Below, in pieces: positions 7,026-24,176 of a DNA stretch of 64,000 nt. Both the position numbers and the translations under genes were made by a program. The notes below the pieces were generated by a model that worked only from the letters and a program-made list of their open reading frames with translations, searched no databases and was not told the DNA's origin. Position 1 is the first letter of the stretch. Each line of letters begins with the position of its first letter. Origin of the DNA: Bremerella sp. P1 (GTDB lineage Bacteria; Planctomycetota; Planctomycetia; Pirellulales; Pirellulaceae); the NCBI RefSeq assembly GCF_028748185.1, contig NZ_CP118164.1, positions 1,302,001 through 1,366,000 on the forward strand, written 5' to 3'.

Positions 7026-7028
7026 AGG

Positions 7029-7101: not shown

Positions 7102-7202
7102 ATGGTGGGTGCTGTCTTGGGAGAAGTATCGGCTTGGGATGAGCGTATTCATCAGCCAAGGGTGATCTTCAAAGACTTAATCAAGTTATAACGGTTTTTC
7201 GT

Positions 7203-7268: not shown

Positions 7269-7296
7269 CTGAGCATGCGAGGTTCGTTGGGGCGAG

Positions 7297-8352
7297 TCAG
7301 TCTCCTTCGATCAGAGGTTCCTCTGGATGGGCTTTGTCGAATTCGGCGGCCATGTATCGGTCGGCTACCGCGGTGTCTAGAAAGAGCTGCCCGACGTGGA
7401 ACGCGACCATGGGCAGGATCGCCAATGGGTTCGCCGTGTAAAACTCGGTCGCGATGGCCAGGCCAATCATCAGGGTCTTCTGGCTACCGGCGAAGGCGAT
7501 TGCGATCTCTTCACTGCGAGGGAAATGGAGCTGCTTGGCAATTCCGACCCCCAGCAGCAACGCCGTTATATGGACAGCCAAAACCAAGCCAATCATGACT
7601 GCAAACGACAGGAATGTCGGCATTTGATCGGTCGGCAGACTTCGCAGCTTGAGGCCACAGCTGATACAGCCGAGCAGGACCATGCAAAGTACTCCTATCT
7701 GGGCCACGATTCCTAGCTGGAATTTATTTTGCGTCGCCCAGGTACCTGCCTTGGGGATAAGTCGAGCAAGCTGGCCGAATGCCATCGGTAGCACAACCAA
7801 AAGGAAGAGTTTCGTCATCATGTCGGCCAGGGAAAGGCCTTTGCCGCCGGGATCTGCCCAAATGGTGATCGTAATGTGACTTCCGGTGGTCCAGAGCAGC
7901 CAGAACGGGGTGATCAAAAAGCAGAGCGAGTTGGTCACGATCGTGACAATCAAGGCAATCGAATCGTTCCCCCCTGCCCTACGTGTCCAGACGGCAGCGG
8001 ACGCCAACGTACAGGGAATCGCTGCCATGAGGTTGATTCCAATGGCGAAGTCCCCTGAAGAGAGCAGCGACGCCGCCCAGGCCAACAGGGGCACGATGCC
8101 TGCGTTGATGATTGTTGCCAAGATAGCCGCGGCCGGACGGCGGATGGCACCGTGCAGATCGCCAAACGCCAGCGGAAAGGCCATCAGAAAGAGGACCGTC
8201 ACGACGATCCCATTTCGCAAGATTTTCATGTCCGGAAGCTGCCGCAGCGGCTCGGAAAAGGCAAATCCGACGATCACCACCGCTAGCAGGCCTGCAAGGA
8301 ACCAATGTCGTCTGAGGAGTGATCGCACGAAAGTCTCGCTTTCCGGTTCCAA
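7297..8352 (-). CDS. SBF-like (bile acid:sodium symporter superfamily) membrane transporter
   Basis: Integral membrane protein of the SBF/BASS group within the CPA-type fold, about ten hydrophobic helices over 351 aa. Landmarks are the pair of broken helices: INLMAAIPCTLASAAVWTRRAGGNDSIA near residues 105-130 and the second core helix IAFAGSQKTLMIGLAIA near 290-305, both typical of SBF-like proteins where two Na+ and an organic anion bind. The first in-frame start is TTG 8352 with no Shine-Dalgarno; GTG at 8328 has a purine-rich stretch upstream and may be the true start. It is divergent from aroC. The substrate is unknown; the paralogues transport bile acids, pyruvate or arsenite. Confidence 0.85.
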   Translation of the reverse strand: MEPESETFVRSLLRRHWFLAGLLAVVIVGFAFSEPLRQLPDMKILRNGIVVTVLFLMAFPLAFGDLHGAIRRPAAAILATIINAGIVPLLAWAASLLSSGDFAIGINLMAAIPCTLASAAVWTRRAGGNDSIALIVTIVTNSLCFLITPFWLLWTTGSHITITIWADPGGKGLSLADMMTKLFLLVVLPMAFGQLARLIPKAGTWATQNKFQLGIVAQIGVLCMVLLGCISCGLKLRSLPTDQMPTFLSFAVMIGLVLAVHITALLLGVGIAKQLHFPRSEEIAIAFAGSQKTLMIGLAIATEFYTANPLAILPMVAFHVGQLFLDTAVADRYMAAEFDKAHPEEPLIEGD

Positions 8353-8414
8353 TGTGGGGGTTGGTGGCCAGACTCTTTTACCTAACCGATCTATCTGCCG
8401 ATCGGGGTTGCGGT

Positions 8415-8420
8415 TAGAAT
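8415..8420 (+). promoter_or_regulatory. TAGAAT, candidate -10 box for aroC
   Basis: TAGAAT in GGTTAGAATCG, 114 nt before aroC, in the divergent spacer. It is the same hexamer as at 5976, 39233, 46791 and 59065. Position and identity are suggestive only. Confidence 0.25.
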
Positions 8421-8533
8421 CGAAGATCGGTTTGCACTTAACCTCGGTACCTGGGGAAGTTTACCTGATAGCGGCGCTAAAATCGAAGCGATCGCCGGGC
8501 ACTGGCTCAGGACCAAAGTCTTTATTTTGCATA

Positions 8534-9679
8534 ATGTTGCGTTATTGGACAGCGGGCGAATCCCACGGTAAAACCCTTCTTGCCATGATCGACGGCTTTC
8601 CGGCCGGACTGGCAATCGACGAAGAACCCATCAATCGCGAGCTTGCTCGTCGCCAGGGAGGGTATGGCCGTGGCGGACGACAGCGAATTGAGACCGACAA
8701 GGTCGAAGTGATGACCGGCATCTGGAAAGGTCTCACGCTCGGCAGCCCGATCGCTCTGCAAGTGATCAATCGCGACTACAAGCTGGAACGCCTGGAAGAC
8801 CTTCCGCGACCTCGTCCTGGGCATGGCGACCTGACCGGTGCGATTAAGTTCCTCGGTCCGATCCGAGCCATCCTTGAACGAGCCAGTGCTCGCGAGACGG
8901 CTGTTCGTGTTGCTGCTGGGGCCTTGGCCAAGCAGCTCCTGGCTGAGTTTGGCATTCAGGTTTACGGTTTCGTCGACGAGCTAGGTGGCGTGGCCATCGA
9001 TCGTCCTGAAAACGTGGACGATGTTGATGCCATGATTGCCAAACGTGACGAGAGCATCATCTACTCGCTTAATCCCGAACAAGATCCCCAGTTCAAAGAG
9101 CTGATCGACAAGACCGGCAAGGCAGGCGACACACTCGGCGGAATCGTCGAAGTCCGTGTCGTTGGTGCTCCGTTCGGGCTGGGCACCCATGCTCAATGGG
9201 AACGCAAGCTCGATGGCAAGCTGGCTCAAGCCGTTATGGCCGTCCAAGCGATCAAAGGGGTCGAGATCGGAATGGGCTTTGAGGCCGCTCGCTTGCCGGG
9301 CTCTCAGGTTCATGACCCGATTCATTACGACCCGATGGAACAAGAATCGACCAACCTCGGCTATACCCGCCCAACCAACAATGCTGGTGGGCTGGAAGCG
9401 GGGATGACCAACGGTCAGACGATTGTCGTGCGTGCCGCGAAGAAGCCGATCAGTACGCTTCGCAAGCCGCTGGAATCCGTCAACCTGGAAACCAAAGAAT
9501 CAGACACCGCTTCCTACGAGCGGAGCGACGTCTGTGCCGTTTCGGCGGCCAGTGTGATTGTGGAGAGTGTTGTGGCGTTTGAAATCGCCACGGCCCTGGT
9601 CGACAAATTCGGTGGCGATAGCCTAGAGGAAATGAAGGCTCGCTACCAACTGTTTATGGATATGGCTCGGAAGCGTTAA
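8534..9679 (+). CDS. aroC: Chorismate synthase
   Basis: Last step of the shikimate pathway: 5-enolpyruvylshikimate-3-phosphate to chorismate, using reduced FMN without net redox change. The protein begins MLRYWTAGESHGK, the family's signature start (GESHG binds substrate and FMN). It continues with RRQGGYGRGGRQ, then RPGHGDL, RASARETAVRVAAGA and near the end SYERSDVCAVSAAS. Length is 381 aa, as expected. The frame runs open a further 650 bases upstream, but that part is antisense to the transporter and has no aroC similarity, so ATG 8534 is the real start. It is divergent from the SBF-like gene and 36 nt or more upstream of the AsmA-like gene, which may share its transcript. Confidence 0.97.
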   Translation: MLRYWTAGESHGKTLLAMIDGFPAGLAIDEEPINRELARRQGGYGRGGRQRIETDKVEVMTGIWKGLTLGSPIALQVINRDYKLERLEDLPRPRPGHGDLTGAIKFLGPIRAILERASARETAVRVAAGALAKQLLAEFGIQVYGFVDELGGVAIDRPENVDDVDAMIAKRDESIIYSLNPEQDPQFKELIDKTGKAGDTLGGIVEVRVVGAPFGLGTHAQWERKLDGKLAQAVMAVQAIKGVEIGMGFEAARLPGSQVHDPIHYDPMEQESTNLGYTRPTNNAGGLEAGMTNGQTIVVRAAKKPISTLRKPLESVNLETKESDTASYERSDVCAVSAASVIVESVVAFEIATALVDKFGGDSLEEMKARYQLFMDMARKR

Positions 9680-9724
9680 TCCGCGGCCACCACTTACCAG
9701 GCACGCCAAGCAAGGATGTTCGGC

Positions 9725-10951
9725 ATGCATGAATCTACGAGACGCCTGCTCTGTCGGGTCGCATTCCTGCTGGGATGCGTCATACCGACGATCTGCACCC
9801 TCTCGTGGATTACGTACCGGCAGTCTTCCTGGTCGATCGCCGCGGTCGAAGACCAACTCTCGGAAACGATCGGTCTCAAGTGCCACATCTCAAGGTACTA
9901 CAACCCGAAGCCAACCAAGTGGGTCTTCGAAGACGTTCGCCTTGAACGAGCCGGCAGCGATGCAGTCGTCTTTCCTGCTCTGAAAGCAGAACTGATCGAC
10001 AATACCTGGCAGCTCTCAGCGGATGAAGTGGAAGTAGACTGGGCTTCGCGACATCGCCTGTGGGAAACCCTTCAGGAAGGCGTGCTTCTGAAGCGTACCG
10101 ATGGCAAATGCCTACAACTAAACGTCGCTCATGTTCGCTTTCGTGACGAAGTACTTCCTTCGCTCCAGAAACTGGAAGTGAAACATGACCCGCAGCAGCA
10201 GCCTGCTTTATCCAGTTCTTTGCTGGTCGGCGACTCACTCATTCCACCTCCACTGATGGCTAGTGTCGACACCTCGAACCCTGAGCATTGGCAGGTTCAA
10301 TTAGCGACCACCGAGCAGCCGATTCCCACACATCCATTGCGTGCTGCCCTGCCACAATTGGCCGGACTGGGTGTCGATGCCAACTTCATGGGGCAGATTA
10401 CGTTTGACCTGAATTACGCTTCGACCAATGTAGAAATGGCAGGCGTGTTTCGGCAAATCAATTTGCAGTCGGCTCTTGCGACAAACTACCAGCACGGCGC
10501 CGGCGGAGCGGAACTGCATGTCAAACAGCTTGTCGTACGCGACGATACCTTGCAGGAAGCATTTGGCGGAATCTTCTCCCGCAACGGGCAACTCTCGCGA
10601 AGCCTTCTGGATCGTGCTGCCCAACACCTGAACGTTCAAGTCATTCCACCCAGTCGCAATCAAGACCTGATCGCCTATCACGAGATGGCGATCGGCTTTC
10701 GCTTCGATCATGGGCGGATGACCCTAACTGGCCTGTGCGATAACATGCCAGCTGGAACCATGCTCGCCGGCCTGGAGCATCCTTTAGTCTACGAGAGCCC
10801 GGTGAGTATTCTACCGGCTACCAATCTGGCGAGCGTCTTCTACGACAATTACTCGTCGACCGTGCCGGCCTCGCAGCCTTCGGTAGATCTGGCACGATGG
10901 CTGACCGCTCCGATGATTGCGGAACGTCCAGGCAATCCGATACAGCGGTAG
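9725..10951 (+). CDS. Membrane-anchored AsmA-like protein
   Basis: Unrecognised at gene level. One N-terminal membrane anchor (LLCRVAFLLGCVIPTICTLSWITY) is followed by a long exoplasmic part with alternating beta-strand character. The stretch EDQLSETIGLKCHIS...KWVFEDVRLERAG resembles the opening of AsmA/TamB-type proteins (groove-shaped lipid-transfer proteins of the envelope). No catalytic motif is visible. An ATG also occurs at 9716, but the only ribosome site (AAGGA at 9712-9716) overlaps it and is spaced correctly, 8 nt, for ATG 9725. Length is 408 aa. It follows aroC by 45 nt and ends at a strong dyad before ccsA. The role in envelope biogenesis is a guess. Confidence 0.75.
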   Translation: MHESTRRLLCRVAFLLGCVIPTICTLSWITYRQSSWSIAAVEDQLSETIGLKCHISRYYNPKPTKWVFEDVRLERAGSDAVVFPALKAELIDNTWQLSADEVEVDWASRHRLWETLQEGVLLKRTDGKCLQLNVAHVRFRDEVLPSLQKLEVKHDPQQQPALSSSLLVGDSLIPPPLMASVDTSNPEHWQVQLATTEQPIPTHPLRAALPQLAGLGVDANFMGQITFDLNYASTNVEMAGVFRQINLQSALATNYQHGAGGAELHVKQLVVRDDTLQEAFGGIFSRNGQLSRSLLDRAAQHLNVQVIPPSRNQDLIAYHEMAIGFRFDHGRMTLTGLCDNMPAGTMLAGLEHPLVYESPVSILPATNLASVFYDNYSSTVPASQPSVDLARWLTAPMIAERPGNPIQR

Positions 10952-11006: not shown

Positions 11007-14000
11007 CTAGTTGTTGTCAACGAGCTTTGCTTCTTCCGGAGCATCGTTGTTGTCCGGAAGTTCCGCTTTGATTACGACTTCTTCCACCTCGTTCTCGTCA
11101 ACGACCGAAAGCTTCGAGAGTTGGAACCGCAGGGCAACAAAGCCTAATGCGATCCAGTTGGCGGCAACGAAGCCCATCACCATGATTTCGCTCCCCTTAC
11201 CACCACTTCCGTAGGAGTGCAGGCCGACGGCATCGCCACCTTTAAACAGCGGCAACAAGAAGTTCACTCCGTACCAACTGCCGACGATTGCTGAGAAGCC
11301 AATAATTGTTCCCACAACCAGGCCGAAGTTATTGAACCAACCGGCAAAGCGAGCGTGCAGGATGGCCACATAAATCAAGAGCGTCACCAACGCCCAGACC
11401 TCTTTCGGATCCCACCCCCAGAAACGGCCCCAAGAAACGTCGGCCCAAATACCACCCAGGATCGTCCCAGTTGCCAGTAGCAACACGGCGACCTGGATAG
11501 CGCGATAGCAATGCTGACCGAGCGTAAAGCACTCTTCTGGCGGACGATAGCTCATCTGTGGGCTGTGTCCCTGAGCCGGAGCGAGCCCAGCGTTCAGCGG
11601 ACTGGCGACCACAGGGGCACGGTAACGCCCGAACATGTAGTAACCCAGCGCCAGCCAACCCAAGCCCCAAGCCAGGATACCTGCTCCGTAACTAGCGACA
11701 ATCGTAAGCACGTGAATCGTGAGCCAGACGTTGGAACGCAGAACTGGCTGCAGCGGCGAGAACTCGGTATTCAGCACGCGTGACGAACCGGTATCCACAA
11801 TCGGAGCGATCGAAGCCACGCACAACAGAAACGTTCCACAGGCAGATGCCGCCAAGCCGTAGTAGTTACGGTGGTACGTCTTCTGAAACTTATCCTTCAG
11901 CTGGGCGTCAATCGACCAGTCGTAAACGCAGAAGATCGGCAGTGCGATGGTGGCAATCAAGAGCCGAGGGATGTACCAGACGCTCAGTCCCAGCACCAAC
12001 AATTTGACGAACAAAAAGATCGAAGCGTAGATAACGCCGTGAGCTGCCATCTGCTCGCCGAAGTCGGTCAGATTGATGATCGGGCGGTTACCGTCATACA
12101 CGGGACGCATCGTCATGAACTGAATCATGGCGAGCATCAGCGGAACACGAATTAAAACCGAAACCCAATTCATCACATTCCACACACCGGCCGAGAACAT
12201 TTCGCGTTGGCTCGGCTCCAGTTCAGACTGTTCCCAGGTGAAAGGAGCAGCCGTCGCACGCCACGCAGCCAATCGACCTCGATCGATCAGAGGAAGCACC
12301 AGGAACATCAGCCCCAGGCTACACACGACCCATGGAACGAATATCACCGTTTCGTACATGTTGGTCACAGGGGCCCAGCCGGTCACGACCACTCGCATGT
12401 AGAAGCCGTAGGTCGACCAGATCAAACCAAACACTAAGAACACCATGCCCATCCAAAACATCGGTTTCCGCATGACGGCAAAAGCCAACCCGAATCCCAT
12501 AGTGGCGATGAACGTGAAGATCCAAGCGTACATGAATGGGTCCATCGTGTTGTAACGGACCTCGGTTGCAATGCGATAGCTGTTCGCGGCTGGGTAAGCG
12601 GTGTACGCCAGGATACCTGAATCCTTTTCGTTGTTACCGATCGTGTCTTCGATCACCGCGATACGTTGCTGAGTATCCTGTTCCCCCAAACGCTGAAGGC
12701 TTTCGGCCAGCTTCTCCATCGCAGGGCGAGCATCGCCGCCGCTCAGGTAAGCATCCTTAGCAGCCTTCCAATTGGAACGCACGGCGTTGATCAAGCCCAT
12801 GTCGTAGTTGGCAAGCACAGCGTCCGAACCATAGAGAACGGTCGTCAAACCAAGCCAAGGCTGTGAAAGGTCACTTGGATCACGCGACTTGCTAAGGGCG
12901 TAAGGATTGAGGGAAGGAACAATCTGCAAGTGATTGCCGCTGCGATCCATCGAAGTCGATGCTGTTAAAGCGCCCGCATTGGCGTTCTCGTACAACGCCA
13001 GGTGGATCTCCATCGCGGTGTGTTCGAGCTGACGAACACGAACCAGCATCGACTGAAACATCGGCTTGATGTTGTTGTACTCTTCGTCGGTAAGCGTGGT
13101 GCTGTCGTTGACGTTATCCCGTTGCTCTTCCAGGATGTCACCCATCGCTTTGGCGGCAGCCTGAAACTCTTGAACTAGCGGTTCAGTCTCTGCCGGGGTC
13201 GGGGCAAACTCTGGTTTGAGTGGTTCATCGGCTGGCGAATTGAGCACCGACATCGGATCCATATAGGCCGCTGACGACAATTCGTGTAGATCTCGATACG
13301 AATCGATCAGGCGTTTCGAGGCAACGCTCAGGGGATGCTCTCCGCCAAACTGCTGTAGCGTCTGCAACTGGCTGTTCAACGTGCGTTCTTCGCCCGAGTT
13401 CGGATCACCAAAGAGGATTTTCCCGGCAGCATAAACCTGACCGATAAATCGATCACGCTCACCCGGCGAAGGAAGCGGATTGGTAGAAACGACATCCTTG
13501 CGTGGATCGAGTGAAACTTCCCGGAAGACGGCGTACCGGAACAACAGTTCCCGCCAGATGTGTGCGTCCATCGCGGTCTCTTCCAAATCACCACTGGCAG
13601 CCTGTTCCTGGCGGCGTTTTTCCATCCCCTTCAGGTACTCGCGCAGCTTCTCGGACGTCGCAATGTCGTGTGGCGAGACGAAGTTCAGCTTCATGCTGTT
13701 GTGGCCGTTGATCGGTAGCCCGAGCTCTTTGCGTACGTCTTCGCGGCCAAGGTAGATAAACGGAACGCGTTCCCACTTTTCAGGACGAACGGTCCATTCG
13801 TAGACCAGCTCGCTTGGAGTGAATTTACGTAGTTCGCCACCCGGGAAGATCTCGAGGGCATCCTTAAACTCCGGCTTCTGAAGTTCCTCTTCGGTGTAAT
13901 AGTCGACCAGATTGAACTTAGGCTTCGACTTGTTGAAGTCGGTAATCTTCTGTACCACCTGCCGAGCGTAGCCATCGATTGGCTTAACGCGACCGTGATG

Positions 14001-14150
14001 ATAGACCGGGATCTCGCGCCAGATATCGTCGGGAAAAGCCTCGTCGGCACGGCCGCTACCCGAAGCGATGAGCACACCGCACATTACCAGTGCAAGGGTC
14101 CAAGTCGTGCGAATCATTCCGCTGTTCATTTTGTACCTAGTCATTATCAC
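11007..14150 (-). CDS. ccsA: CcsA-type cytochrome c haem lyase, long form
   Basis: System II cytochrome c maturation subunit that handles haem at the outer face of the membrane and attaches it to CxxCH of apocytochromes, with ResB. The haem-handling 'WWD' motif is clear: WGRFWGWDPKEVW (907-919), with His residues in flanking helices (for example LHSYG after it). A signal peptide or first helix (MIRTTWTLALVMCGVLIASGSGRA) precedes a roughly 500-residue extracytoplasmic segment. That segment begins IPVYHHGRVKPIDGYA, a wording also known from the long CcsA proteins of Bacteroidetes. About ten membrane helices follow. The start GTG 14150 overlaps the resB stop as GTGA; ATG 14144, 14129 or 14117 are alternatives. 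At 1047 aa it is about three times a minimal CcsA. Confidence 0.92.
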   Translation of the reverse strand: MIMTRYKMNSGMIRTTWTLALVMCGVLIASGSGRADEAFPDDIWREIPVYHHGRVKPIDGYARQVVQKITDFNKSKPKFNLVDYYTEEELQKPEFKDALEIFPGGELRKFTPSELVYEWTVRPEKWERVPFIYLGREDVRKELGLPINGHNSMKLNFVSPHDIATSEKLREYLKGMEKRRQEQAASGDLEETAMDAHIWRELLFRYAVFREVSLDPRKDVVSTNPLPSPGERDRFIGQVYAAGKILFGDPNSGEERTLNSQLQTLQQFGGEHPLSVASKRLIDSYRDLHELSSAAYMDPMSVLNSPADEPLKPEFAPTPAETEPLVQEFQAAAKAMGDILEEQRDNVNDSTTLTDEEYNNIKPMFQSMLVRVRQLEHTAMEIHLALYENANAGALTASTSMDRSGNHLQIVPSLNPYALSKSRDPSDLSQPWLGLTTVLYGSDAVLANYDMGLINAVRSNWKAAKDAYLSGGDARPAMEKLAESLQRLGEQDTQQRIAVIEDTIGNNEKDSGILAYTAYPAANSYRIATEVRYNTMDPFMYAWIFTFIATMGFGLAFAVMRKPMFWMGMVFLVFGLIWSTYGFYMRVVVTGWAPVTNMYETVIFVPWVVCSLGLMFLVLPLIDRGRLAAWRATAAPFTWEQSELEPSQREMFSAGVWNVMNWVSVLIRVPLMLAMIQFMTMRPVYDGNRPIINLTDFGEQMAAHGVIYASIFLFVKLLVLGLSVWYIPRLLIATIALPIFCVYDWSIDAQLKDKFQKTYHRNYYGLAASACGTFLLCVASIAPIVDTGSSRVLNTEFSPLQPVLRSNVWLTIHVLTIVASYGAGILAWGLGWLALGYYMFGRYRAPVVASPLNAGLAPAQGHSPQMSYRPPEECFTLGQHCYRAIQVAVLLLATGTILGGIWADVSWGRFWGWDPKEVWALVTLLIYVAILHARFAGWFNNFGLVVGTIIGFSAIVGSWYGVNFLLPLFKGGDAVGLHSYGSGGKGSEIMVMGFVAANWIALGFVALRFQLSKLSVVDENEVEEVVIKAELPDNNDAPEEAKLVDNN

Positions 14151-17100
14151 GAAACCACTTCTGTCTGAATCTTCGCCGGGTGAGCCTTGGCTCGGGCCTG
14201 CGGGTCAGACGATCGTTTAGTTTTGAAGAAATAGGCCCGCATGTAGAACATGCAAGCGATGCCCCCGATCACGAACAAGCAACCCCAATAACGAAGGGCC
14301 GTTCCTGGATCGTAGTTGACCGAGAACACCGATTTGTAGACTTCCGAATCGTTGCTACGCTCGGGAACGAACTCGCGATACTGCGGTGTCCCGGCGAGGT
14401 ATGGCCCTTCGAATGATTCCTGGAAGATACGCAGGTCGCGACCACCAGCTGGTTCGGTAAAATCATCCGGAGCGTTCATCGTAATCCAGACATCTCGCTT
14501 CAAGAGAGCCGTCTGGCTAAAGAGCAAGTCGCCTGAGGCTGGATCAATCGCTAATCCGTCCGGCTTGGCCATCAAGTCGGCATGGAGCATCTTGGGTTCT
14601 TTGTCTTTGCCTTGCAGATCGATCACGCGGATCACCGTGTTGATCTCCTGCGGCTTGCTCCGGTCGAGAGAAGGATCGCCCAGGTGCTTTCGGGCATTCG
14701 GATCGAGACCATTGGGCGTATCATCGCTCCAATACAACAGTCCCTTGTCACTCACGACCAGACTGTTGGGGTGCCCGTCCTTCGAGTAGGTGTAAACATA
14801 CGAAACACGTGGCTCGTCGAGTGACGATTGGCCGATCGCATTATTCAGCACATCGGTGAAGAACAACTTATTCTTGCCTGGATAAAGTGCCACATCGGTT
14901 ACCAGTCCCGCACCGGTAAGCCAGCTGGCTTCCATCTCGCTTCCATCGGTCTTCACACGACCGACCGACTTGCCGGCCGGGTTGCCGAAATAAACCCAGC
15001 CATTGGCGGAATCCACAGCCAGACCGCGTGGGGCTCGATCGAACATGGCAACAGCTTTCGGACTTCCACCGACCAGGTCGGCTTGCATCAAGACATCGAC
15101 GTCCGAACGTGCCAATCGGCTCGACTGCTTGGCCAGCCACCACAGCTTGTTGCCTGAGGTATCGATCACCAGGTTTCGCGGACTCTTACCGGCCCGTGTA
15201 ACGATTTCGGAGGCAGGCTCATCAGGCTTGCTCAGATCTTTCACCAGGATCTTTTGACCGTCATCGGTATCATCGATCCAGTAGAGCATCGTGCCAGCCA
15301 TACCCAGCGAACTGGGATTACGGGCCTCGGCAATTTCGAGGTGGCTGATTTCGTCGCTACCGACCAACGAAGCCATGATATATCGGTCTTGCTGCCGATC
15401 GATATATTGCACGTCGCTTGAGTAGTGCGACGGCTGCGAGGTGCCTGGGTCGAGGCGGCGTTCGAATTGGTCGAGGTGAATGCGGAAACCAATCGGATAC
15501 GACTTAATGGGCATCGAAAGCTTTACTTCACGATCACCCACCTTTAGCGTGTGCAGCGTCGAACCGTCATCGAGACCGACATCTGGTTCGTTCATGTGGG
15601 CTCGCAGCCAGAAATCTTCTGACTTATCGTCGAGCGTCAGACGGACTTTTACCGCCGGCGTATTGCCCATAGGACCGGACACACCGAAGGCAACTGGAAT
15701 AGGTTGAGCCTTAGGCTCGCTGGCAGCGACTAAGCTCTTCACATACATGCGAAGGGTCGCAAATGGCATCTTGAACGCTTCAACCGCATCGACTTCGGTT
15801 GCGTTATCCTTCAGTTCACCAGACGCAACAACCGTCTTGCGATTCCAATAGCGATAGAAAACCCGTTTTGATTCGGGTGCGTCCGGATCTTTCGCTCCTT
15901 CGGCAACCCCTTGTATGAGGTCGATACGAGAACCGCCTTCTCCACCACGCATCAGCTCAGCCGTTGACTTCTCGCCGAAGTCGTACCAGAAGTGACCATA
16001 GACATCGGACGCGAAGCCTTGCATGTTCATCTGCGGCATATTCGCCAGCAGCGTGAGTTGGTCAACTTTCTCATCCCCATCCAGAACATCGATCACCACA
16101 GTCGGGTTACGCGGCTCGGCTCCTTCTTCTTCCGGAACTTCAACCCAGGAGAACTCCTGGCCGTTAACCTGATCGAGCTGCGCGGTCGGGTAATAGGCTT
16201 TCACCTGGTACTTGAGCTCCGAACCTTCAATCGGCTGAGGCTCTTGTTCCAGCTGATCTTTCACATCAATAACGGTTGTCTTGCCATCGACGTAAAGAAT
16301 GGCCTGACCGTTCTCACCGATCGTTCCTTCTTCCGGCACGCATTTGAGAAATGCCTCGGTGGCGGCACGGCTGCCGGCCATATGGAACGTCATGTTACCA
16401 CCACCACTGCGTTGGCTATCGCCAATGCCGAACTTATACTTCGGCTGCTGCGAAGCCTTGAAAACCGACAGACGAATCGGCACCCACTGCTCGCCAACGG
16501 CTTTCATAGTGCCATCTGCAGCTCGCTCGGTCGTCTTGGGCATACTCATCATCAACTGAACCGTAGGCGTATTGTCCCACCAATTGCAGTCGGCATAGTA
16601 ATCGAGCACTTCCAACTTCACGCCGTCGTGGTTGTACATCACATTGCCAGCGCGATTTCGCATCGAGATGTAGAATACGGGCGTGAACCACCTGGCTAGA
16701 TCAGGCTCGGCCACCTTCCACTTCGAGAAGCCTTCCCCGTATGCCGACCAATTGAACATGCCTGGCTGAAAGTCGATCATGTGCCGCTGTATTTCGCCGG
16801 CCTCGGCAAGCGCCATGGGAATGGCCTTCGCGTCATTGTCGACGCGCAGATCAAAGTAGTACGAATTATCGAACGCAAGCTCGGATGAGTCGTGCTCCCA
16901 AACATGAACCTGGGCATCGATCCCCTTCGAGCGGCTGATTGCGCCACTCAACAGCAGCATCAACAAGCCGATATGCGTGATGACAAAGCCGGTCTGATAA
17001 CGTTTCCAGGGGTAACGAATGGCGGCAGCACAGAAAATATTGACGGCCAACAAGCCATAGATCAAACCGAACCACCACGATTGATAGACGTAGAACTGCA

Positions 17101-17269
17101 CCACGTCGGTGTTGAAGGTGGCTTCGACGAATGTCGCGAAGATCAACGAAATCGCCATCAAACTGATTAGCACAACGGCCAAGCTCAGTGAGGCGGCGAA
17201 TTCGTAGATATGCAGCAGTAGCCGTACCGGTAGGGGCTGGTCGGGGGAGACAAGTTTCGGTCTTGCCAC
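14147..17269 (-). CDS. resB: ResB-like cytochrome c maturation protein with YWTD-type propeller
   Basis: Partner of CcsA in System II: thought to pass haem and keep apocytochrome reduced. The N-terminus has three membrane helices in the ResB pattern (LSLAVVLISLMAISLIFATFVE; WWFGLIYGLLAVNIFCAA; TGFVITHIGLLMLLLSG), then a very long exoplasmic part, and one last helix near 991-1010. Between the ResB core and that helix there are six evenly spaced blade motifs: LYWID 662, LWWLA 709, VYFGN 759, LFFTD 802, LYWSD 845, LLFSQ 915. This is the pattern of a six-bladed YWTD/NHL propeller. Usual ResB proteins are 450-600 aa; this one is 1040. It is the first gene of the operon, coupled to ccsA by a 4-nt overlap. 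Confidence 0.88.
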   Translation of the reverse strand: MARPKLVSPDQPLPVRLLLHIYEFAASLSLAVVLISLMAISLIFATFVEATFNTDVVQFYVYQSWWFGLIYGLLAVNIFCAAAIRYPWKRYQTGFVITHIGLLMLLLSGAISRSKGIDAQVHVWEHDSSELAFDNSYYFDLRVDNDAKAIPMALAEAGEIQRHMIDFQPGMFNWSAYGEGFSKWKVAEPDLARWFTPVFYISMRNRAGNVMYNHDGVKLEVLDYYADCNWWDNTPTVQLMMSMPKTTERAADGTMKAVGEQWVPIRLSVFKASQQPKYKFGIGDSQRSGGGNMTFHMAGSRAATEAFLKCVPEEGTIGENGQAILYVDGKTTVIDVKDQLEQEPQPIEGSELKYQVKAYYPTAQLDQVNGQEFSWVEVPEEEGAEPRNPTVVIDVLDGDEKVDQLTLLANMPQMNMQGFASDVYGHFWYDFGEKSTAELMRGGEGGSRIDLIQGVAEGAKDPDAPESKRVFYRYWNRKTVVASGELKDNATEVDAVEAFKMPFATLRMYVKSLVAASEPKAQPIPVAFGVSGPMGNTPAVKVRLTLDDKSEDFWLRAHMNEPDVGLDDGSTLHTLKVGDREVKLSMPIKSYPIGFRIHLDQFERRLDPGTSQPSHYSSDVQYIDRQQDRYIMASLVGSDEISHLEIAEARNPSSLGMAGTMLYWIDDTDDGQKILVKDLSKPDEPASEIVTRAGKSPRNLVIDTSGNKLWWLAKQSSRLARSDVDVLMQADLVGGSPKAVAMFDRAPRGLAVDSANGWVYFGNPAGKSVGRVKTDGSEMEASWLTGAGLVTDVALYPGKNKLFFTDVLNNAIGQSSLDEPRVSYVYTYSKDGHPNSLVVSDKGLLYWSDDTPNGLDPNARKHLGDPSLDRSKPQEINTVIRVIDLQGKDKEPKMLHADLMAKPDGLAIDPASGDLLFSQTALLKRDVWITMNAPDDFTEPAGGRDLRIFQESFEGPYLAGTPQYREFVPERSNDSEVYKSVFSVNYDPGTALRYWGCLFVIGGIACMFYMRAYFFKTKRSSDPQARAKAHPAKIQTEVVS

Positions 17270-17706: not shown

Positions 17707-19083
17707 CTACGAAGGTAGCAGACCCAGAATACCGTCCATCAGCGTGCTTGTGAGGGAATAGGGCTCGCTGAAGCTCCACATATTCCACATCAAGTCCGTC
17801 ACCATCAGGCCACACACCAAGAGCAGCAGTGCGGTGACGCCAAGACTGAGGACATTCATGAACGAGTAAGGCACTTCGGAAGGAGCTGCTGCCACTGGGG
17901 CCGCTGCAGCCATCGTTCCCGTACCGGCCATGACCGAGTCGTCGGCTTCCAGGCCATCGCTTTCACCCAACCCACCGAAATCGCCTCCTTCCAGAGTCGC
18001 GCTTCCGAATAGGCCAGATTCCGAGGACATCGAATCCGAGTCCAACGCAATCACTTGCGAGCCGCTATCGTCATCTTCCAGATCGCCTTCGACTGGTGTC
18101 AAAAGGAAGTCATCTTCCGCAGCACCACCGGTAAGTGCCTCACCAATCTCGTCATTGTCCGTGCTATCGGCAACGACTTCTTCCGCTTCTTCAGCACTGA
18201 TCAGTTCGAGGCCACTGTCTCCGGTCGAGAGGGAAAAATCATCGTCATCGGCCTCGGCAATCAAACCTAGCCCGCTGTCGCCGCCGTCATCATCAATCAG
18301 GCTAATTTCGCTATCGTCCTTTGACTTGGCCGCGGGTTCTTCGGCCAGACCAAGATCGTCTTCCGAGGCCAACAGATCCATGCTGCTGTCTTCGTCATCT
18401 TCGATATCGAGCGTCAGTTCACCGCTGCTATCGTTGTCGTCCATGCCGATGCCGCTGGTACCAAGATCCAGCGACTCATCTTCAAGCCCCAGGCTCAAAC
18501 CACTGCCGGTTCCTTCCGGATCCGATGGTTCGCCGCCCAAATCGATGTTGGCATCACTGCCTTCTTCGCTAAGCGTCAGTTCATCGTCTTCGAGGCTGAA
18601 GCCATCGTCGTCGAGGGGCTTGTTGATCGAAGAACCTTCGAGAATGTCCGAGCCTTCACCCAGGCTCAAGCTGCTCAGACTGGACTCACCAGCAGGATCG
18701 ACGCTACTGCTCGAAGCGTCGTCTATGCCAATATCGCTATCAAGGCTGAGCGAACTGTCCGAGTCTTGTCCGATGATATGGGACGAACCACTATCGCCAC
18801 CTTCACCGGTATCGGAAATCAGAATGCTGTCCATCGAACCGGACGAACCTTCATCCGAATCGGTGATACCGCTAAGTTCGAATTCCTGGCTCTCGCTGTC
18901 ACCTCCACCGAGTCCTTCCTCGGCCAAGATGCCGCGGGCCTTTTCGAGTTCGTCTTCCTTGAACTTCCAGCTCGATCCATCGCGGAATGCACGAACCTTG
19001 CCGCGCTCGCGCAGATCTTGAATCGTGTCTTCAGATACGCCTAACTTGGCAGCGAATTCAGAAAGCGGAAGATAGTCGGCCAT
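17707..19083 (-). CDS. HTH protein with acidic Ser/Asp-rich tether and C-terminal membrane helix
   Basis: Residues 1-55 form an excisionase/MerR-like winged-helix DNA-binding domain (LPLSEFAAKLGVSEDTIQDLRE, then VRAFRDGSSWKFKEDEL). The next 330 residues are low-complexity and very acidic, with imperfect repeats built on SLxLGDxxSxLELDD. A single hydrophobic helix near 405-428 (VLSLGVTALLLLVCGLMVTDLMW) and a short amphipathic tail end the protein. So it appears to hold a DNA-binding head on a long charged tether fixed in the membrane. ATG 19083 was chosen because GGGAG lies 7 nt upstream; a longer start at 19104 has none. Length is 458 aa. It follows the small exported protein on the same strand. 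The function is unknown. Confidence 0.82.
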   Translation of the reverse strand: MADYLPLSEFAAKLGVSEDTIQDLRERGKVRAFRDGSSWKFKEDELEKARGILAEEGLGGGDSESQEFELSGITDSDEGSSGSMDSILISDTGEGGDSGSSHIIGQDSDSSLSLDSDIGIDDASSSSVDPAGESSLSSLSLGEGSDILEGSSINKPLDDDGFSLEDDELTLSEEGSDANIDLGGEPSDPEGTGSGLSLGLEDESLDLGTSGIGMDDNDSSGELTLDIEDDEDSSMDLLASEDDLGLAEEPAAKSKDDSEISLIDDDGGDSGLGLIAEADDDDFSLSTGDSGLELISAEEAEEVVADSTDNDEIGEALTGGAAEDDFLLTPVEGDLEDDDSGSQVIALDSDSMSSESGLFGSATLEGGDFGGLGESDGLEADDSVMAGTGTMAAAAPVAAAPSEVPYSFMNVLSLGVTALLLLVCGLMVTDLMWNMWSFSEPYSLTSTLMDGILGLLPS

Positions 19084-19138
19084 GATGGCTCCCAAAAGGT
19101 TCAACCTAGCGGGAAGCCTAAGACCTCAGACTTCGTCG

Positions 19139-19477
19139 CTACGATTGGTTGAGCAGTGTACGAATCTCACGTGGGCTTGGCGTGCCCCCGTTGAATTCCT
19201 CGATGAGTAAATCCCATTGTAAGTTGCGAACGCTTTTCAGGGAAACTTTCCCCGTACTTCCGTCCACGTGATAAACGGCCATAACCCGGGCTTCCGGATC
19301 TACCATGATCACGTGCTGTCCGCCGTCCTCTGTCTTGGCCGCATGGACAATCAGGCCATTGGAGACCGGTAGCCCAACATGCTTCTGGGCCATTGCAGAC
19401 GGAGTACTGCGGAAAAGTTCAACGCTCAGCGTTACAGCGACCAATACAACGATCGCCGAGAGAAGCGGCTTCCACAT
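19139..19477 (-). CDS. Small exported protein of unknown function (112 aa)
   Basis: Not recognised. The N-terminus is a signal peptide or single anchor (MWKPLLSAIVVLVAVTLSVELF...SAMAQ). The mature part has a beta-rich look (GLIVHAAKTEDGGQHVIMVDPEARVMAVYHVD) that resembles a half propeller blade or a small beta-meander. The end PSPREIRTLLNQS is helical. AGGTG is 7 nt before ATG 19477. It is 55 nt upstream of the HTH gene, same strand, with no terminator between them, so the two are probably one operon. The pair may act together at the membrane. Confidence 0.75.
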   Translation of the reverse strand: MWKPLLSAIVVLVAVTLSVELFRSTPSAMAQKHVGLPVSNGLIVHAAKTEDGGQHVIMVDPEARVMAVYHVDGSTGKVSLKSVRNLQWDLLIEEFNGGTPSPREIRTLLNQS

Positions 19478-20032
19478 AAATCACCTAGATTACGCGATTT
19501 ACGGAATCGTTCCTCCAAGATTTATTCTAGAAGCCCAATTCCGAGATGCAACTATTTATCTGATGGTTAGTTAGGGAGATTTAACGGGCTGCGACCACCA
19601 CTTCGGGGGAAGGGATGGAATGAATTACCTGTTTTCGCCCAGCATTCGGGTAGTTTATCAGTGCCTAGAGAACCAACAAACATCGATTTTGCCGCGGGAG
19701 AAGCGTGTTGGCGGCTACCCGAAAATTTTTTGGTCAAGAAAGAACATCGGCCGACGGACAAGTCCGTCGGCCGAACATTCATTTCCCCCCCGGGATTTAA
19801 TTCGACGCGCTATTGCGCGATTGCATTTCAGCAAGTCCGCCTGTGGGCGGTAGTTATCGAAAGCGTTGATTGCCTCGACGGATAAAGTTATCGGCACGCA
19901 AGGCATCCCTATTGAAGCTCTTTTGGGGCGAAATTCGAAAAATCTATCGCATTATCGCAACCCTCCGTATCTCCCCAGACTAACAGCCTTCGAAATCGAG
20001 TTGCGATTTTGTCTGATTAGTTAGGGGTCGAA
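19478..20032. other. Intergenic region, 555 bases, with strong palindromes
   Basis: Divergent spacer between the small exported protein and the ExbB-like operon. It holds a perfect 13-bp palindrome (19747-19774) and a small CGCGC-TATT-GCGCG hairpin (19806-19819). Short frames in the region are by-products of these palindromes, with no ribosome sites. No promoter was identified. Confidence 0.5.
19747..19774. repeat. Perfect 13-bp palindrome (two-base centre)
   Basis: TCGGCCGACGGAC (19747-19759), AA, GTCCGTCGGCCGA (19762-19774). It folds as a 12-bp hairpin with a CAAG loop on either strand. It has no T-run and is about 260 nt upstream of the ExbB-like gene. It resembles REP-type intergenic repeats rather than an operator. 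Confidence 0.7.
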
Positions 20033-21448
20033 ATGTCGATTCTAACGATTAACGCGAGTTTCCCTTTTGTTCCGCCCCCTACCCCGGGAAGTGCGGTGCC
20101 ATCGAGAAGGAGTTCGATTGTGCAAGAGACGGACGCCCCCAAAATTTCTCAGTCCATCGCCGCCAAGCTGGGTTGGCCGATTCTTATCGGTTCGGCTCTG
20201 ACGGTCTTGTTTTACGGTGCTATCCATTTTGGCATCATCCCCCACCATCCCCTGCTTCGCTACGTCACCGCACACCCGGTCGAGTATGTCGAAGTTGGCA
20301 TGTTTATGGTGGGTGTCGCTGCCTTGTTATTGAAGGCCGGCCAGTTGATCGGCGAGTTCCGCTCGCTGAGTCACGTCGATTTGCCGCCGCAAGAGAATGG
20401 CCGCGATAAGATCGAACAGGCCCCGCTGCTGCTCAATGCCTTACAACAATTGCCGGAGTCATTTCACCCGACACTTTTGTTTCAGCGGCTCTCCAAAGGC
20501 TTGCAACATGTTCATGCCAGCCAGACAGCCTCGAATCTACAGGATGAACTGAAATACCTGGCCGATATCGATCAAGAGAAGTGTGAACACGACTATTCAA
20601 TGGTTCGCATCGTGATCTGGGCCACACCGATGCTGGGCTTCTTGGGTACCGTTATTGGTATCACGCTGGCACTGGGCAACCTATCGCCAGAAGCGCTGGT
20701 GAATGAACCCAAGGTCGCGATGGAGAGCCTGCTTCAGGGACTCAGCGTGGCGTTTGATACCACCGCGCTTGCATTAACCCTTTCCATTGGACTGATGTTC
20801 GCTCAGTTCGTCCTTGGCCGTGTCGAATCGGAACTGCTGAGCAACGTCGATTCCATGGCGGCTGACGAGTTGACCGCACGATTTGAAACCGAAGGCAGCG
20901 CCACCGATCCAAGTGTTCTCGCGGTTAAGAAGATGGCCGAACGAACCATCCAGACCACGCAAGACCTTGTCGTGCGTCAGACAGAGCTCTGGCGAGACAC
21001 GGTCTCCTCCGCTCATCAACATTGGCAGCGGTTGATCTCCGCCAGCAGCGAACAAATGGAAACGGCACTGCACAATGCCATGACCGAATCGCTCAAAACG
21101 CACGCCGACGCCTTCGCGGCTGCCCAGCAGCATACGATTCAGCGTTCGGCCGAACAGCTCAACGGCGTTGTCGATGCTTTGTACCAAGTCAGTTCTTCCA
21201 TCCATGCTCAGCATGAACAACTGACGGAGCAAGGGACGATCCTACTGAAAGTGGTCGAAGCAACCGGCGAAGTCGCCAACTTGGAACACTCCCTCAATCG
21301 CAATCTGGAAACGCTGGCCGGTAAGCAGCACTTTGAAGAGACCGTCCAGAGCCTGGCCGCGACGATTCACCTGCTTAACTCGCGGATGTCCGGCAGCGGA
21401 CATACTTCGGTTCAACTCGATCGCAAGGACAAAGGTCAAGCCGCGTGA
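20033..21448 (+). CDS. MotA/TolQ/ExbB-type proton channel protein
   Basis: Inner-membrane channel subunit of the ExbB/TolQ/MotA group, which uses proton flow to move an ExbD/TolR/MotB partner. Four helices are visible: about 47-66, 86-102, 192-212 and 236-261. The last two carry the family's core wording WATPMLGFLGTVIGITLALG and VAFDTTALALTLSIG, with the pore threonines (Thr206; Thr243/244/249). After helix 4 there is a long soluble tail (about 265-471), largely helical, probably coiled coil. ATG 20033 is preceded by AGGGG. Length is 471 aa, about twice TolQ. It is the first of three genes joined by GTGA overlaps, so a fixed-ratio complex with the next two products is likely. Confidence 0.9.
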   Translation: MSILTINASFPFVPPPTPGSAVPSRRSSIVQETDAPKISQSIAAKLGWPILIGSALTVLFYGAIHFGIIPHHPLLRYVTAHPVEYVEVGMFMVGVAALLLKAGQLIGEFRSLSHVDLPPQENGRDKIEQAPLLLNALQQLPESFHPTLLFQRLSKGLQHVHASQTASNLQDELKYLADIDQEKCEHDYSMVRIVIWATPMLGFLGTVIGITLALGNLSPEALVNEPKVAMESLLQGLSVAFDTTALALTLSIGLMFAQFVLGRVESELLSNVDSMAADELTARFETEGSATDPSVLAVKKMAERTIQTTQDLVVRQTELWRDTVSSAHQHWQRLISASSEQMETALHNAMTESLKTHADAFAAAQQHTIQRSAEQLNGVVDALYQVSSSIHAQHEQLTEQGTILLKVVEATGEVANLEHSLNRNLETLAGKQHFEETVQSLAATIHLLNSRMSGSGHTSVQLDRKDKGQAA

Positions 21449-23106
21449 GTCGACGTCGTTCAGCACGACATACGGTCGAGATCTCGCTATTCCCCTTCCT
21501 GGCCGTGTTGATCTGCACCATGGGAGCCTTGATTGTGCTCTTCGTGGTGATGGTCCTCCAGGCTCGTACGGAAGCGGTGGCGGTCGATCTACCGGCGCTC
21601 TCGGTGCCTGCTCCGGCAGAGCCAGAGCCTCCTGCTCCTGCGCCAGAACCGCAGCCGGTCGAAGACTACACCGAGAAGATGCAGGAGCTCGAGCAACTGC
21701 GTCTCACACGACTCAAGCAGTTGGAAGATGCTCGCCTACAGCTTTCTGGCCTGGAAGACCATAGTCACCGCCTGACCGAAAAGATCCGCAAGCTCCGCGG
21801 CGACATTGCGGTGCTGGAAGGGGAAACCGAGAACGTCACCGGTAGTGCCGATGACTTTGAGACACAAAAGCAGCGATTGAATCAACAGATTGCTGAGGCT
21901 CAGGCAGAACTCGACAAGGTTCGCAAAGAAATCAAGGGACGCAAACCAGCCTATGCTTTGGTTCCTTACGACGGACAGAGCGGAACACGCCGCCAGCCTA
22001 TCTACATCGAATGCACAGCCGATCGCGTGATCATCCAACCAGAAGGGATCGGTTTGACAGGTACCGATTTCCAGGAACCTCTCGGACCCGGCAATCCATT
22101 GGCAGCATCCCTGCGGACCATTCGTGAGTACCGTCAATCGCAAGGCGTGCCAGGACAAGGCAATCCTTACCCGCTGTTGATTGTTCGCCCCGGTGGTGCC
22201 GAGTCGTATGCAGCCGCGCGGGAAGCCCTGAACGGCTGGGACGACGAATTCGGCTATGAGCTGGTCGACGAAGATACCGAACTAGCCTATCCGCCTGCCG
22301 ATCGCTTCTTGGCCAAACGTTTGATTGAAACGGTTGAACTGGCTCGACGTCGCAAGATCGCTCTGATCATGGCTGCTCCGAAGAAGTACGGCCGCGTCGA
22401 AGATCAATACCTCGCGGCAACACGCAACGGTGGCTTCCAAGCTGTCGGTAGCGGGGGTGACGAAGAGGCATTTCTCGAGAACCGATTCGTAGAACGTGGC
22501 AACGGTACCGGCGAAATGCCGGCCGAAACCTATGGTGGTTCCGGTCAAATGGGAACCGGCCGAGCGACCACTCCGGTTAATGACGCCCAGCAGAGGGCAC
22601 CTAATCAACAATCGGGTCAAGGCTTTTATCCTCAGCAGGCTCCTCCAGAACAACGTACCGGTGAAGGCAAGCACGGCGCTCAGTATGCTCAGCCAAATGG
22701 TCCCGACATGAAGGATGCTTCCGGCGGAACAGGTGGTAACCGCTCGTCTGCCAAGCCGATCGCAGCCACACGAGGCGGCAACTGGGCTTTACCGACGGCA
22801 GGACCTCGAAACACGGCGATTACACGGCCGGTCACGCTGGTAGTAAGCGGAGCACAGATGACCTTGGTGCAAGAGCGTGGCGTACTTGGTCCCGCTGAAA
22901 CGGTCCCTGTAAACGGAGACATGGAAGCGGCGGTCGACAAGCTCGTTCGCTTGATTCATACACGCATCGACAGCTGGGGCATGGCTGGTCGCAACTTCTA
23001 CTGGAAGCCCATCTTGCAAGTCACCGTCGAGCAAGGCGGCGAGCCTGTGGTAAGCCAGTTGGAAACGCTCTTGTACGGTTCCGGGATCGAGGTGAATCGC
23101 AAGTGA
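21445..23106 (+). CDS. ExbD-like protein without the transmembrane Asp, large periplasmic part
   Basis: One N-terminal membrane helix (13-38) in the ExbD/TolR position: EISLFPFLAVLICTMGALIV. In ExbD the consensus is PFxDV, and that Asp carries the proton; here it is Ala20. Then come a Pro-rich stretch (PAPAEPEPPAPAPEPQP), a coiled coil (about 75-170), a folded domain (about 175-330, YALVPYDGQS...IYIECTADRVIIQPEG...LLIVRPGG), a Gly/Gln-rich linker and a C-terminal domain. GTG 21445 overlaps the previous stop (GTGA). Length is 553 aa, far beyond ExbD (about 140). The role is structural or regulatory by inference; peptidoglycan or outer-membrane contact is possible but no OmpA motif is clear. 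Confidence 0.82.
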   Translation: MSRRRSARHTVEISLFPFLAVLICTMGALIVLFVVMVLQARTEAVAVDLPALSVPAPAEPEPPAPAPEPQPVEDYTEKMQELEQLRLTRLKQLEDARLQLSGLEDHSHRLTEKIRKLRGDIAVLEGETENVTGSADDFETQKQRLNQQIAEAQAELDKVRKEIKGRKPAYALVPYDGQSGTRRQPIYIECTADRVIIQPEGIGLTGTDFQEPLGPGNPLAASLRTIREYRQSQGVPGQGNPYPLLIVRPGGAESYAAAREALNGWDDEFGYELVDEDTELAYPPADRFLAKRLIETVELARRRKIALIMAAPKKYGRVEDQYLAATRNGGFQAVGSGGDEEAFLENRFVERGNGTGEMPAETYGGSGQMGTGRATTPVNDAQQRAPNQQSGQGFYPQQAPPEQRTGEGKHGAQYAQPNGPDMKDASGGTGGNRSSAKPIAATRGGNWALPTAGPRNTAITRPVTLVVSGAQMTLVQERGVLGPAETVPVNGDMEAAVDKLVRLIHTRIDSWGMAGRNFYWKPILQVTVEQGGEPVVSQLETLLYGSGIEVNRK

Positions 23107-24176
23107 GACGTCCGGCCAAAACAACCAGTGCAGACAAGAACGCACCGTCGCTTGATTCATTTCTTGACGTGGTGACTAACCTTGTCGGGATCCTGATCAT
23201 CCTGATCATGGTGGTCGGTATCACGGCTCGAGATGCGATCGTGGATGCGGCGATCGGCAAAACGGACGAGCCTGTCAAACCTCCGACGCTATCGATTCCT
23301 GCACCGGAGCCGGAACTACCCAAGGCACCGCCCAAGCCGCAGGGACCAACGCTGGCCGAAGTGAACAGCATGGCCCAAGATGTGGCCTCGATCCAGCATG
23401 AGATCCTCGACGTGCAAGAGCAGGCAAAACTTGCATTCGAAGAACGCAATCAACTGCAATTGTTTTTGACATCCGCGGAAACCACGCTCAACCAAAAGCA
23501 GCAAGAGCTTTCCAGCAGTAAACAAGAAGAAGTCGCCCAGCAGCGGGAGCTACTACACACGACTTCACAGCTGGAAGAGTTATACGATCAAATCGAGAGC
23601 CTGCGTGACTACCGGCCCGAGGTGAAAGAACTGGCCCACTACCCCACTCCGCTGGCCAAGACCGTCTTTGGTCAGGAAGAACACTTCCGCCTCCGCCATG
23701 GACGAATCTCTTACGTTCCGATGGAGCGATTGGTCGAGGCCATGAAGAACGATGCCCGCAGCCACTTGGACCGTGCTCGACGCGATGGAAAAGCGGTCGC
23801 TCGCATCGGTCCAATGAACGGCTATGTCATGCAGTACACGCTCGTCAGTCGTTCGTACGAAATGGAAACTTCTCTCGGCACGGCCACGCGTGGCGGTATC
23901 GAACTTCAGAGTTTTACCCTGGAACCGGAGACCGAACAGATCGGCTTTCCCATTGACGAAGCTTTGCAACCGGGGTCGCGTTTCCGCGATATTATCGCCT
24001 CGCTCGATCCATCGCGGACGACGATCACGATCTGGACCTACCCTGATAGTTATGGCGACTTCCGCAAAGTTCGTGATGATCTGTACGAGATCGGGTTCAC
24101 GACGGCAGCACGCCCACTGCCGGAAGACTACCCAATCGGTGGGAGCCCGCAAGGTTCTCGCTCGTCTTCGCAATAG
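23103..24176 (+). CDS. ExbD-like protein with conserved transmembrane Asp
   Basis: Single N-terminal membrane helix (about 19-42) with SFLDVVTNLVGILIILIMVV: Asp22 sits where ExbD/TolR/MotB keep their proton-carrying Asp. A Pro-rich segment, a coiled coil (about 80-165) and a periplasmic domain (about 190-345) follow. It is similar in plan to the previous gene's product, so the two are probably paralogues that pair with each other. GTG 23103 overlaps the previous stop as GTGA. Length is 357 aa. Being the only Asp-bearing partner in the operon, it is the likely force-generating subunit. No TonB, Tol-Pal or gliding genes adjoin it, so the load it drives is unknown. Confidence 0.85.
   Translation: MRRPAKTTSADKNAPSLDSFLDVVTNLVGILIILIMVVGITARDAIVDAAIGKTDEPVKPPTLSIPAPEPELPKAPPKPQGPTLAEVNSMAQDVASIQHEILDVQEQAKLAFEERNQLQLFLTSAETTLNQKQQELSSSKQEEVAQQRELLHTTSQLEELYDQIESLRDYRPEVKELAHYPTPLAKTVFGQEEHFRLRHGRISYVPMERLVEAMKNDARSHLDRARRDGKAVARIGPMNGYVMQYTLVSRSYEMETSLGTATRGGIELQSFTLEPETEQIGFPIDEALQPGSRFRDIIASLDPSRTTITIWTYPDSYGDFRKVRDDLYEIGFTTAARPLPEDYPIGGSPQGSRSSSQ

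Follow-up and report, generated by a model that had tools for sequence, protein, structure and literature searches.

The genome of Bremerella sp. P1 (Bacteria; Planctomycetota; Planctomycetia; Pirellulales; Pirellulaceae) carries three overlapping genes, here called B, A and D, which we think with moderate confidence encode a proton-driven motor of the ExbB/MotA type with an asymmetric axle. They lie in a stretch of 64,000 nucleotides (NCBI RefSeq assembly GCF_028748185.1, contig NZ_CP118164.1, positions 1,302,001 to 1,366,000 of the forward strand), which is the window of this study and whose first letter is position 1 in the coordinates below. B is a channel protein and A and D are two axle-type chains, of which D would carry the proton on an aspartate (Asp) of its transmembrane (TM) helix and A would be its Asp-less partner with a duplicated periplasmic domain. 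A heteromeric motor with Asp on a single chain had been proposed in an earlier annotation of the same DNA (the original prediction). What speaks for it is that the split between the chains is conserved, that it contrasts with four ordinary pairs of ExbD chains in the same genome, and that the periplasmic spacers of A and D co-vary in length; its premise that known units use two identical chains has proved too strong.

The three genes and the two axle helices

B, A and D occupy positions 20033-21448 (471 amino acids), 21445-23106 (553 amino acids) and 23103-24176 (357 amino acids), all on the + strand. A and D start with GTG, and each shares the four bases GTGA with the gene before it (B/A at 21445-21448, A/D at 23103-23106), so that the proposed layout is borne out by the coordinates of the open reading frames (ORFs) and by the sequence at both joints. 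B, which had been taken for a MotA/TolQ/ExbB channel, indeed matches the MotA_ExbB family (PF01618) over residues 153-265 (E-value 5.7e-13; 49.2 bits against a cut-off of 22.9). It has four predicted TM helices (residues 42-60, 82-100, 193-211 and 239-257) and a long tail of about 200 residues (approximately 266-471), which is taken to be cytoplasmic. The pore-helix threonines of B (Thr206, Thr243/244) line up by motif with those of ordinary ExbB of the same genome; in the passages of PMC12905483 that number them, the ExbB pore threonines are Thr148 and Thr181.

D reads PSLDSFLDVVTNLVGILII and has the feature of the ExbD/TolR family, an N-terminal TM helix with an Asp, here Asp22 (codon GAC, 23166..23168). 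A reads EISLFPFLAVLICTMGALI; its TM helix (21487..21558, SLFPFLAVLICTMGALIVLF...) lacks the Asp and has an alanine, Ala20 (codon GCC, 21502..21504), at the site. The claim that Ala20 occupies the position of Asp22 is confirmed by a profile alignment of A with D, which reaches an E-value of 2.9e-13 over helix and coil, places A20 opposite D22 and leaves the helix ungapped; the helix alone aligns with an E-value of 9.7e-6 in global mode. When the A and D helices are aligned with the ordinary ExbD chains of the same genome, A20 and D22 do fall on the ExbD Asp, but the E-values are not significant (0.05-0.06; 0.35 for D). The label 'ExbD-like', given to both chains from the start, thus draws on their helix motif, on the order of their domains and on the channel gene beside them, whereas the Pfam model of ExbD (PF02472) matches neither chain: there is no match in A or D up to an E-value of 1, the model is absent from the 25 families listed for each, and a search of the genome with it gave 12 places up to an E-value of 10, none of them at the B-A-D locus.

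The foreseen periplasmic part of A, about 500 residues long, is right. Behind the TM helix come a Pro-rich stretch and a coil, a first domain (residues 172-300, 21958..22344), which aligns with its counterpart in the class II sets described below with an E-value of 7.5e-11 in global mode, a linker that is Gly/Pro/Gln-rich in sequence (approximately residues 308-439, 22366..22761), and a second domain (residues 440-552, 22762..23100), which is a duplicate of the first (hhalign E-value 1.5e-8). This second domain also matches the domain of D, over 30 columns, with an E-value of 6e-4. An AlphaFold2 model of D (mean predicted local distance difference test, pLDDT, 77) gives a TM helix at residues 17-51, a coiled-coil helix at 84-169 (23352..23609) and a periplasmic alpha/beta domain at 190-347 (23670..24143; pLDDT mostly around 90). 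Inspected by eye, and with an inserted strand region set aside, this domain runs beta-beta-alpha-beta-alpha-beta, which we take to be the order of ExbD/TolR. The C-terminal end of D, some 25 residues long (RPLP..PI.GSP.GS.S..Q), belongs to the best conserved parts of the chain, and the conservation reaches almost to the last residue.

How widely is the split between the two chains kept? A whole-protein search with A gave a match in 33 of 294 Planctomycetota genomes. Sets of the kind found in the window, called class I below, are present in 20 of the 21 sampled genomes of the same taxonomic class or closer, that of Bremerella sp. P1 included; the remaining genome (G105) is without one, a profile search included. 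The fair sample for site 20 of A consists of the 20 loci (window plus 19) that were found without the Ala motif. All 20 have the order B-A-D and Asp22 in D; 19 show Ala in A and one shows Thr. The gene order with an Asp/Ala split, which the original prediction had proposed to look for across planctomycetes, is there. A wide scan of named genomes met 456 stretches encoding a relative, of which 80 loci were kept. One of its two patterns was LFPFLAVL and its loci are therefore biased to Ala, which stands at the site in 80 of 80; D has Asp in all 75 chains read. Taken together, the A site is Ala in 99 and Thr in one of 100 class I chains (80 of them Ala-biased), and all 95 D chains read have Asp. 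Among the five D chains that were not read, three run out at contig ends (L120, L152 and L156) and two belong to loci without D nearby (L170 and L176); the 93 D chains of the spacer set below, chosen by a motif demanding both Asp of the helix, do not enter the count. Each of the 80 scanned loci bears a planctomycete name in its title, apart from one that is called just 'bacterium'; Blastopirellula marina, Bythopirellula polymerisocia, Mariniblastus and Thermogutta are among the names in the class I records. The four-base overlap of B and A recurs in 68 of the 80.

The surroundings of the site are conserved as well. In the 20 loci of the fair sample the LFPFL motif, Cys24 and Gly27 of the A helix are invariant, and so are Thr206, Asp242, Thr243 and Thr244 of B; a Cys at +4 from site 20 is found in 100 of 100 class I A chains. 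Another acidic residue in the A helix had been named as evidence that would speak against the proposal, and none occurs from -5 to +17 around site 20 in any of these 100 chains. Chains that both keep Asp, named likewise, are absent from class I (0 of 100; 0 of 20 in the fair sample) but occur in a paralogous group, class III (L101 and five relatives). D has a second invariant Asp one turn ahead of Asp22, Asp18 (23154..23156), which lies near the start of the TM helix in the predicted model and is present in the 20 loci and in the 75 D chains read in the other 80. It appears most improbable to us that the loss of Asp has no mechanistic meaning, with A a structural relic in which Ala, Thr and Ser drift at a dispensable site: three residues are indeed found at this site, but not one of 100 class I and 14 class II A chains has an acid there, amid neighbours that do not vary.

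Co-variation of the two periplasmic spacers

If two chains run in one parallel shaft, the distances from the membrane site to the periplasmic domain should change together. The spacer was measured as this distance on alignments, for 93 class I pairs of A and D, 91 of them with a B chain in the tree described below. The spacers of A and D agree with r 0.95 (n=93), the mean difference being -3.2 residues with a standard deviation of 6.5 and the A spacer ranging from 145 to 233. Independent contrasts on the B tree leave r at 0.83 (90 contrasts), and the signs of the non-zero contrasts agree in 78% of 63. Controls are flat, with 0.10 for the A spacer against the length of B, -0.004 for the D spacer against the length of B, a measure that is noisy as B was taken as the longest ORF, and -0.05 for the rest of A against D. 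A first measure with a motif-based anchor, for which 63 pairs qualified, gave a Spearman coefficient of 0.80. A crude length of uninterrupted coil gave the opposite sign (Spearman -0.46), probably since one Pro or Gly is enough to interrupt the coil, and was replaced by the alignment-based distance. This co-variation is the main new evidence and supports an A:D axle.

A width of the periplasm common to a species was considered as the cause of the match and rejected. In the 10 genomes that hold both class I and class II sets (five of them of one genus) the class I A spacer runs from 148 to 233 and tracks D (r 0.98), and the class II A spacer stays at 149-156. The match recurs on a lesser scale over class II as a whole, where the spacers average 154 and 151 residues, with r 0.73 (n=14, uncorrected for relatedness).

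Two other arrangements of the same chains have to be weighed against a mixed axle at this point. In the Ton and Tol complexes, TonB and TolA are bound at the outside of the ring, and A could likewise be a third, TonB/TolA-like transducer outside the ring of an ordinary proton motor B5-D2, sharing its periplasmic shaft. A is a long chain, Pro-rich after its TM helix, and matched spacers would also be compatible with an A running alongside D across the periplasm, outside the ring. However, the helices of A and D are homologous and align site for site, no TonB or TolA domain is found in A by Pfam up to an E-value of 1, and D too is Pro-rich behind its TM helix; we therefore regard the transducer as unlikely. 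The chains might instead form separate homodimers that share B, with B5-D2 active and B5-A2 idle, plug-like or regulatory. A single B gene serves two partners, the heterodimer is deduced from sequence, and dimeric axles of one chain type are known for MotB and ExbD, in part from PMC9389320. Against this stand the matched spacers and the retention of class II A and D together even where they are unlinked, and separate homodimers seem to us quite unlikely. A mixed axle of A and D fits both of these observations.

Paralogous sets and the loss of the aspartate

The genome of Bremerella sp. P1 offers its own comparisons. Its four ordinary ExbB-ExbD-ExbD operons (L094, L095, L099 and L100) have Asp in 8 of 8 ExbD chains. 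It also holds a class II B-A-D set (G000:C1:2778109-2781660; L052, coordinates 6218-9889), whose A has Ser and whose D has Asp at the site. Class II, sampled as all non-class-I matches with an E-value under 1e-12, comprises 14 copies in 13 genomes, and A has Ser in 14 of 14 and D Asp in 14 of 14. Classes I and II match chain by chain, with E-values of 2.5e-16 for the A helix, 1.1e-14 for the D helix and 2.6e-14 for the D domain besides that of the A domain given above, and within class II A matches D in both helices and domains (E-value 1.6e-5 each). The class II D has been kept even in five genomes, all of one genus, where it lies far from B and A. At these relocated loci (L202-L206) a bioD-like gene adjoins D in four of five, as judged by eye from GTDTxVGKT/S (L205 unchecked). 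The class II B of Bremerella sp. P1 (L052) starts with a CxxC...CxxC segment, presumably zinc-ribbon-like.

Class III, represented by one set of the Bremerella sp. P1 genome (L101, coordinates 3785-6504) and its relatives L186-L190, has the same gene order of B, A-type and D-type chains as class I and differs from it in a shorter B (321 amino acids) and in Asp in both axle chains. Its A matches class I A (E-value 3.3e-9, G121), and the class II D profile matches its D (E-value 1.9e-7, G181). Thus the loss of Asp would be specific to lineages, and the heteromeric pair broader than that loss. Some class III sets adjoin proteins with a GPF/GPY segment, which we assume to resemble a GYF-type domain. 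Ser and Asp are also the residues of L071, a more distant set that comes from outside the class. At L066 both axle-type chains have Asp; this locus (5332-9869) consists of a related channel and the two axle-type genes, with a protein between them that by eye looks to be of the Hsp70/actin type. Among the weaker matches, loci that gave no readable set (L064, L065, L067-L070, L193-L195, L198 and L199) and those in which the A site was unreadable (L191 and L192) were left uncounted.

In the B tree, classes I, II and III each form one group and six ordinary ExbB chains another. With the root assumed on the branch of ordinary ExbB, class II joins class III with moderate support (92/84) and L066 falls outside.

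Could the working carboxylate be one of the channel instead? In a GldLM-like design it would be Asp242 of B (in the motif AFDTT), with the Asp of D secondary. This Asp is invariant in the 20 class I B chains of the fair sample, and the motor of GldL and GldM relies on Glu49 of GldL, as stated in the part of PMC8986121 that deals with the carboxylate. Nevertheless, the class II B of the same genome has Asn at the site, and Asp or Asn is found in four class II B chains; one of the 62 class I B chains captured by motif (36 of 98 were not captured) has Ala there, and D keeps Asp22 in every chain read. We consider a channel carboxylate of this kind very unlikely and retain Asp22 of D as the probable proton carrier. 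A channel acid as compensation for the lost Asp was also rejected as an idea, since class III keeps both axle Asp and yet has Glu at this site in the one class III B chain shown (L187). The same holds for Asp18 of D as a simple make-up for the lost Asp: class III D has Glu there though its A keeps Asp.

Several points weigh against an asymmetric, single-Asp axle, the noisy B-length control among them. Neither A nor D has a significant match to ExbD, and domain 1 of A is no match to the class I D domain (E-value 0.12). At L170 and L176 an A gene is found with no D within 2.2 and 2.6 kilobases, respectively. Matched spacers could also come from A2 and D2 units side by side in one assembly. Through Asp18 the axle may have two carboxylates on D and none on A. 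Class III keeps Asp in both chains, and because class II joins class III on the B tree with L066 outside, the assumed root would call for two or more losses of Asp, or for one loss followed by a regain, a history that the long branches make uncertain.

Proposed cycle, known motors and genomic surroundings

An outline of how an asymmetric axle might work is as follows. Five B subunits would probably form the ring, with one A helix and one D helix side by side in its pore. Both chains would continue as a matched periplasmic shaft of about 150-230 residues, each ending in a related alpha/beta domain. Asp22 of D would bind and release the proton, working against the two threonines conserved in the channel of B, and A would be the passive half of the axle and, having the duplicated domain, the likelier periplasmic attachment and load-bearing arm. 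Since Asp is on D alone, there would be no alternation between chains at that site. With one canonical protonatable site, the simplest cycle would have the Asp visit each of the five B subunits in turn, giving five 72-degree steps and five protons per turn, where models of symmetric 5:2 motors have ten steps of 36 degrees. For 5:2 motors, the passages of a review that treat stepping predict 36-degree steps, one per ion (PMC9389320), and in ExbD and TolR dimers, according to the portions of PMC12905483 on these axles, the two Asp are placed differently, one on the channel Thr and one towards the cytoplasm, an asymmetry thought to matter for direction and power stroke in Ton and Tol.

A bolder reading, which we offer tentatively and which could well turn out wrong, is that asymmetric motors of this kind, almost universal among the sampled genomes of the class, have an obligate heterodimer as their axle, move in 72-degree steps and use half the protons per turn, Asp having been lost in more than one lineage of an already heteromeric family. 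The Asp-less chain would then have taken over load-bearing with its duplicated domain, and the proton would be handled by the other chain.

How does this compare with known motors? ExbB-ExbD and TolQ-TolR resemble B-A-D in having a MotA_ExbB channel with both threonines and an axle chain that crosses the membrane once and has its Asp in the first helix; they differ in that B-A-D has two unlike axle chains, one of them without Asp, with long shafts and no PF02472 match. No TonB, TolA, TolB or Pal is found among the scanned neighbours of B-A-D, in contrast to Ton and Tol. AglR-AglQ-AglS of Myxococcus gliding, as far as the sources describe it, also combines one MotA-type gene with two ExbD-type genes: AglQ and AglS, of 162 and 194 amino acids, both match PF02472 (in the part of PMC3169522 that lists them), and the relevant passages of PMC9389320 describe two different ExbD-type chains, both with the conserved Asp, and leave open how the chains pair. 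Compared with AglRQS so described, A lacks Asp and both axle chains are longer. GldL-GldM of type IX secretion and gliding is like A in its long, multi-domain periplasmic shaft and the absence of an essential acid from the axle helix, GldM being a dimer of one chain in the same part of PMC8986121; D, by contrast, keeps the axle Asp (Asp22). Hence the original prediction goes too far where it has the known units built with two identical chains bearing Asp, as AglRQS has two different chains and GldLM relies on Glu49 of GldL.

Zorya ZorA-ZorB resembles B in that ZorA profiles match it over channel and long tail (NCBIfam E-value 0.0021; PADLOC E-value 1.2e-8), but the NCBIfam score of 17 bits is far below the cut-off of 500. 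A defence system was rejected for B-A-D: the ZorA matches lie in the channel and tail of B only, no effectors are found among the scanned neighbours, and class I is nearly universal in the sampled genomes of the class, which a patchy defence system would not be.

What is already known, within what these sources describe, is that one channel can have two different axle-type chains (AglRQS) and that an axle can lack the essential acid (GldM, with the Glu in GldL). What seems new is a pair with Asp on one axle chain and none on the other; no report of such a pair, or of an Asp-less axle partner, was found among the open-licence papers searched, preprints excluded, and a search on mixed MotB dimers yielded nothing usable. 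Models of 5:2 motors rest on two identical, alternating axle Asp, and nature provides a test of them in an axle that has Asp on one chain alone. Is alternation needed? How many protons are used per turn? Can proton handling be split from force transmission? The genome itself supplies a comparison in class III, where both Asp are present. If the asymmetric axle is real, motors of the ExbB/MotA kind can run with a single-sided axle.

The lack of TonB, Tol-Pal, gliding and Zorya genes in the neighbourhood, noted in the original prediction, holds for the 14 neighbour proteins scanned (7.9-35.0 kilobases, small ORFs left out). Clustering of the genes around the 100 class I loci placed the A, B and D families at 95, 92 and 86 loci, and the commonest other family at 22; gatB-like genes follow at 19 and gatA-like genes at 16, and no cargo or partner gene emerged from this clustering. 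Upstream of B, between divergent genes, lies a perfect 12-pair inverted repeat (19747..19774) that is terminator-like on both strands. Beyond it, on the - strand, are a small exported-looking protein without convincing family (19139-19477), whose family occurs at 11 of the 100 loci, and an excisionase-type helix-turn-helix protein (17707-19104; PF12728, E-value 1.1e-7), whose family occurs at 15, the window being counted in both. The latter includes a long acidic stretch rich in Asp and Ser and, close to its C-terminus, a hydrophobic segment. Farther off on the same strand (11007-17269), two neighbouring proteins of about 1040 amino acids each have a cytochrome c assembly domain and a ResB-like match, and are presumably longer than is usual for such proteins.

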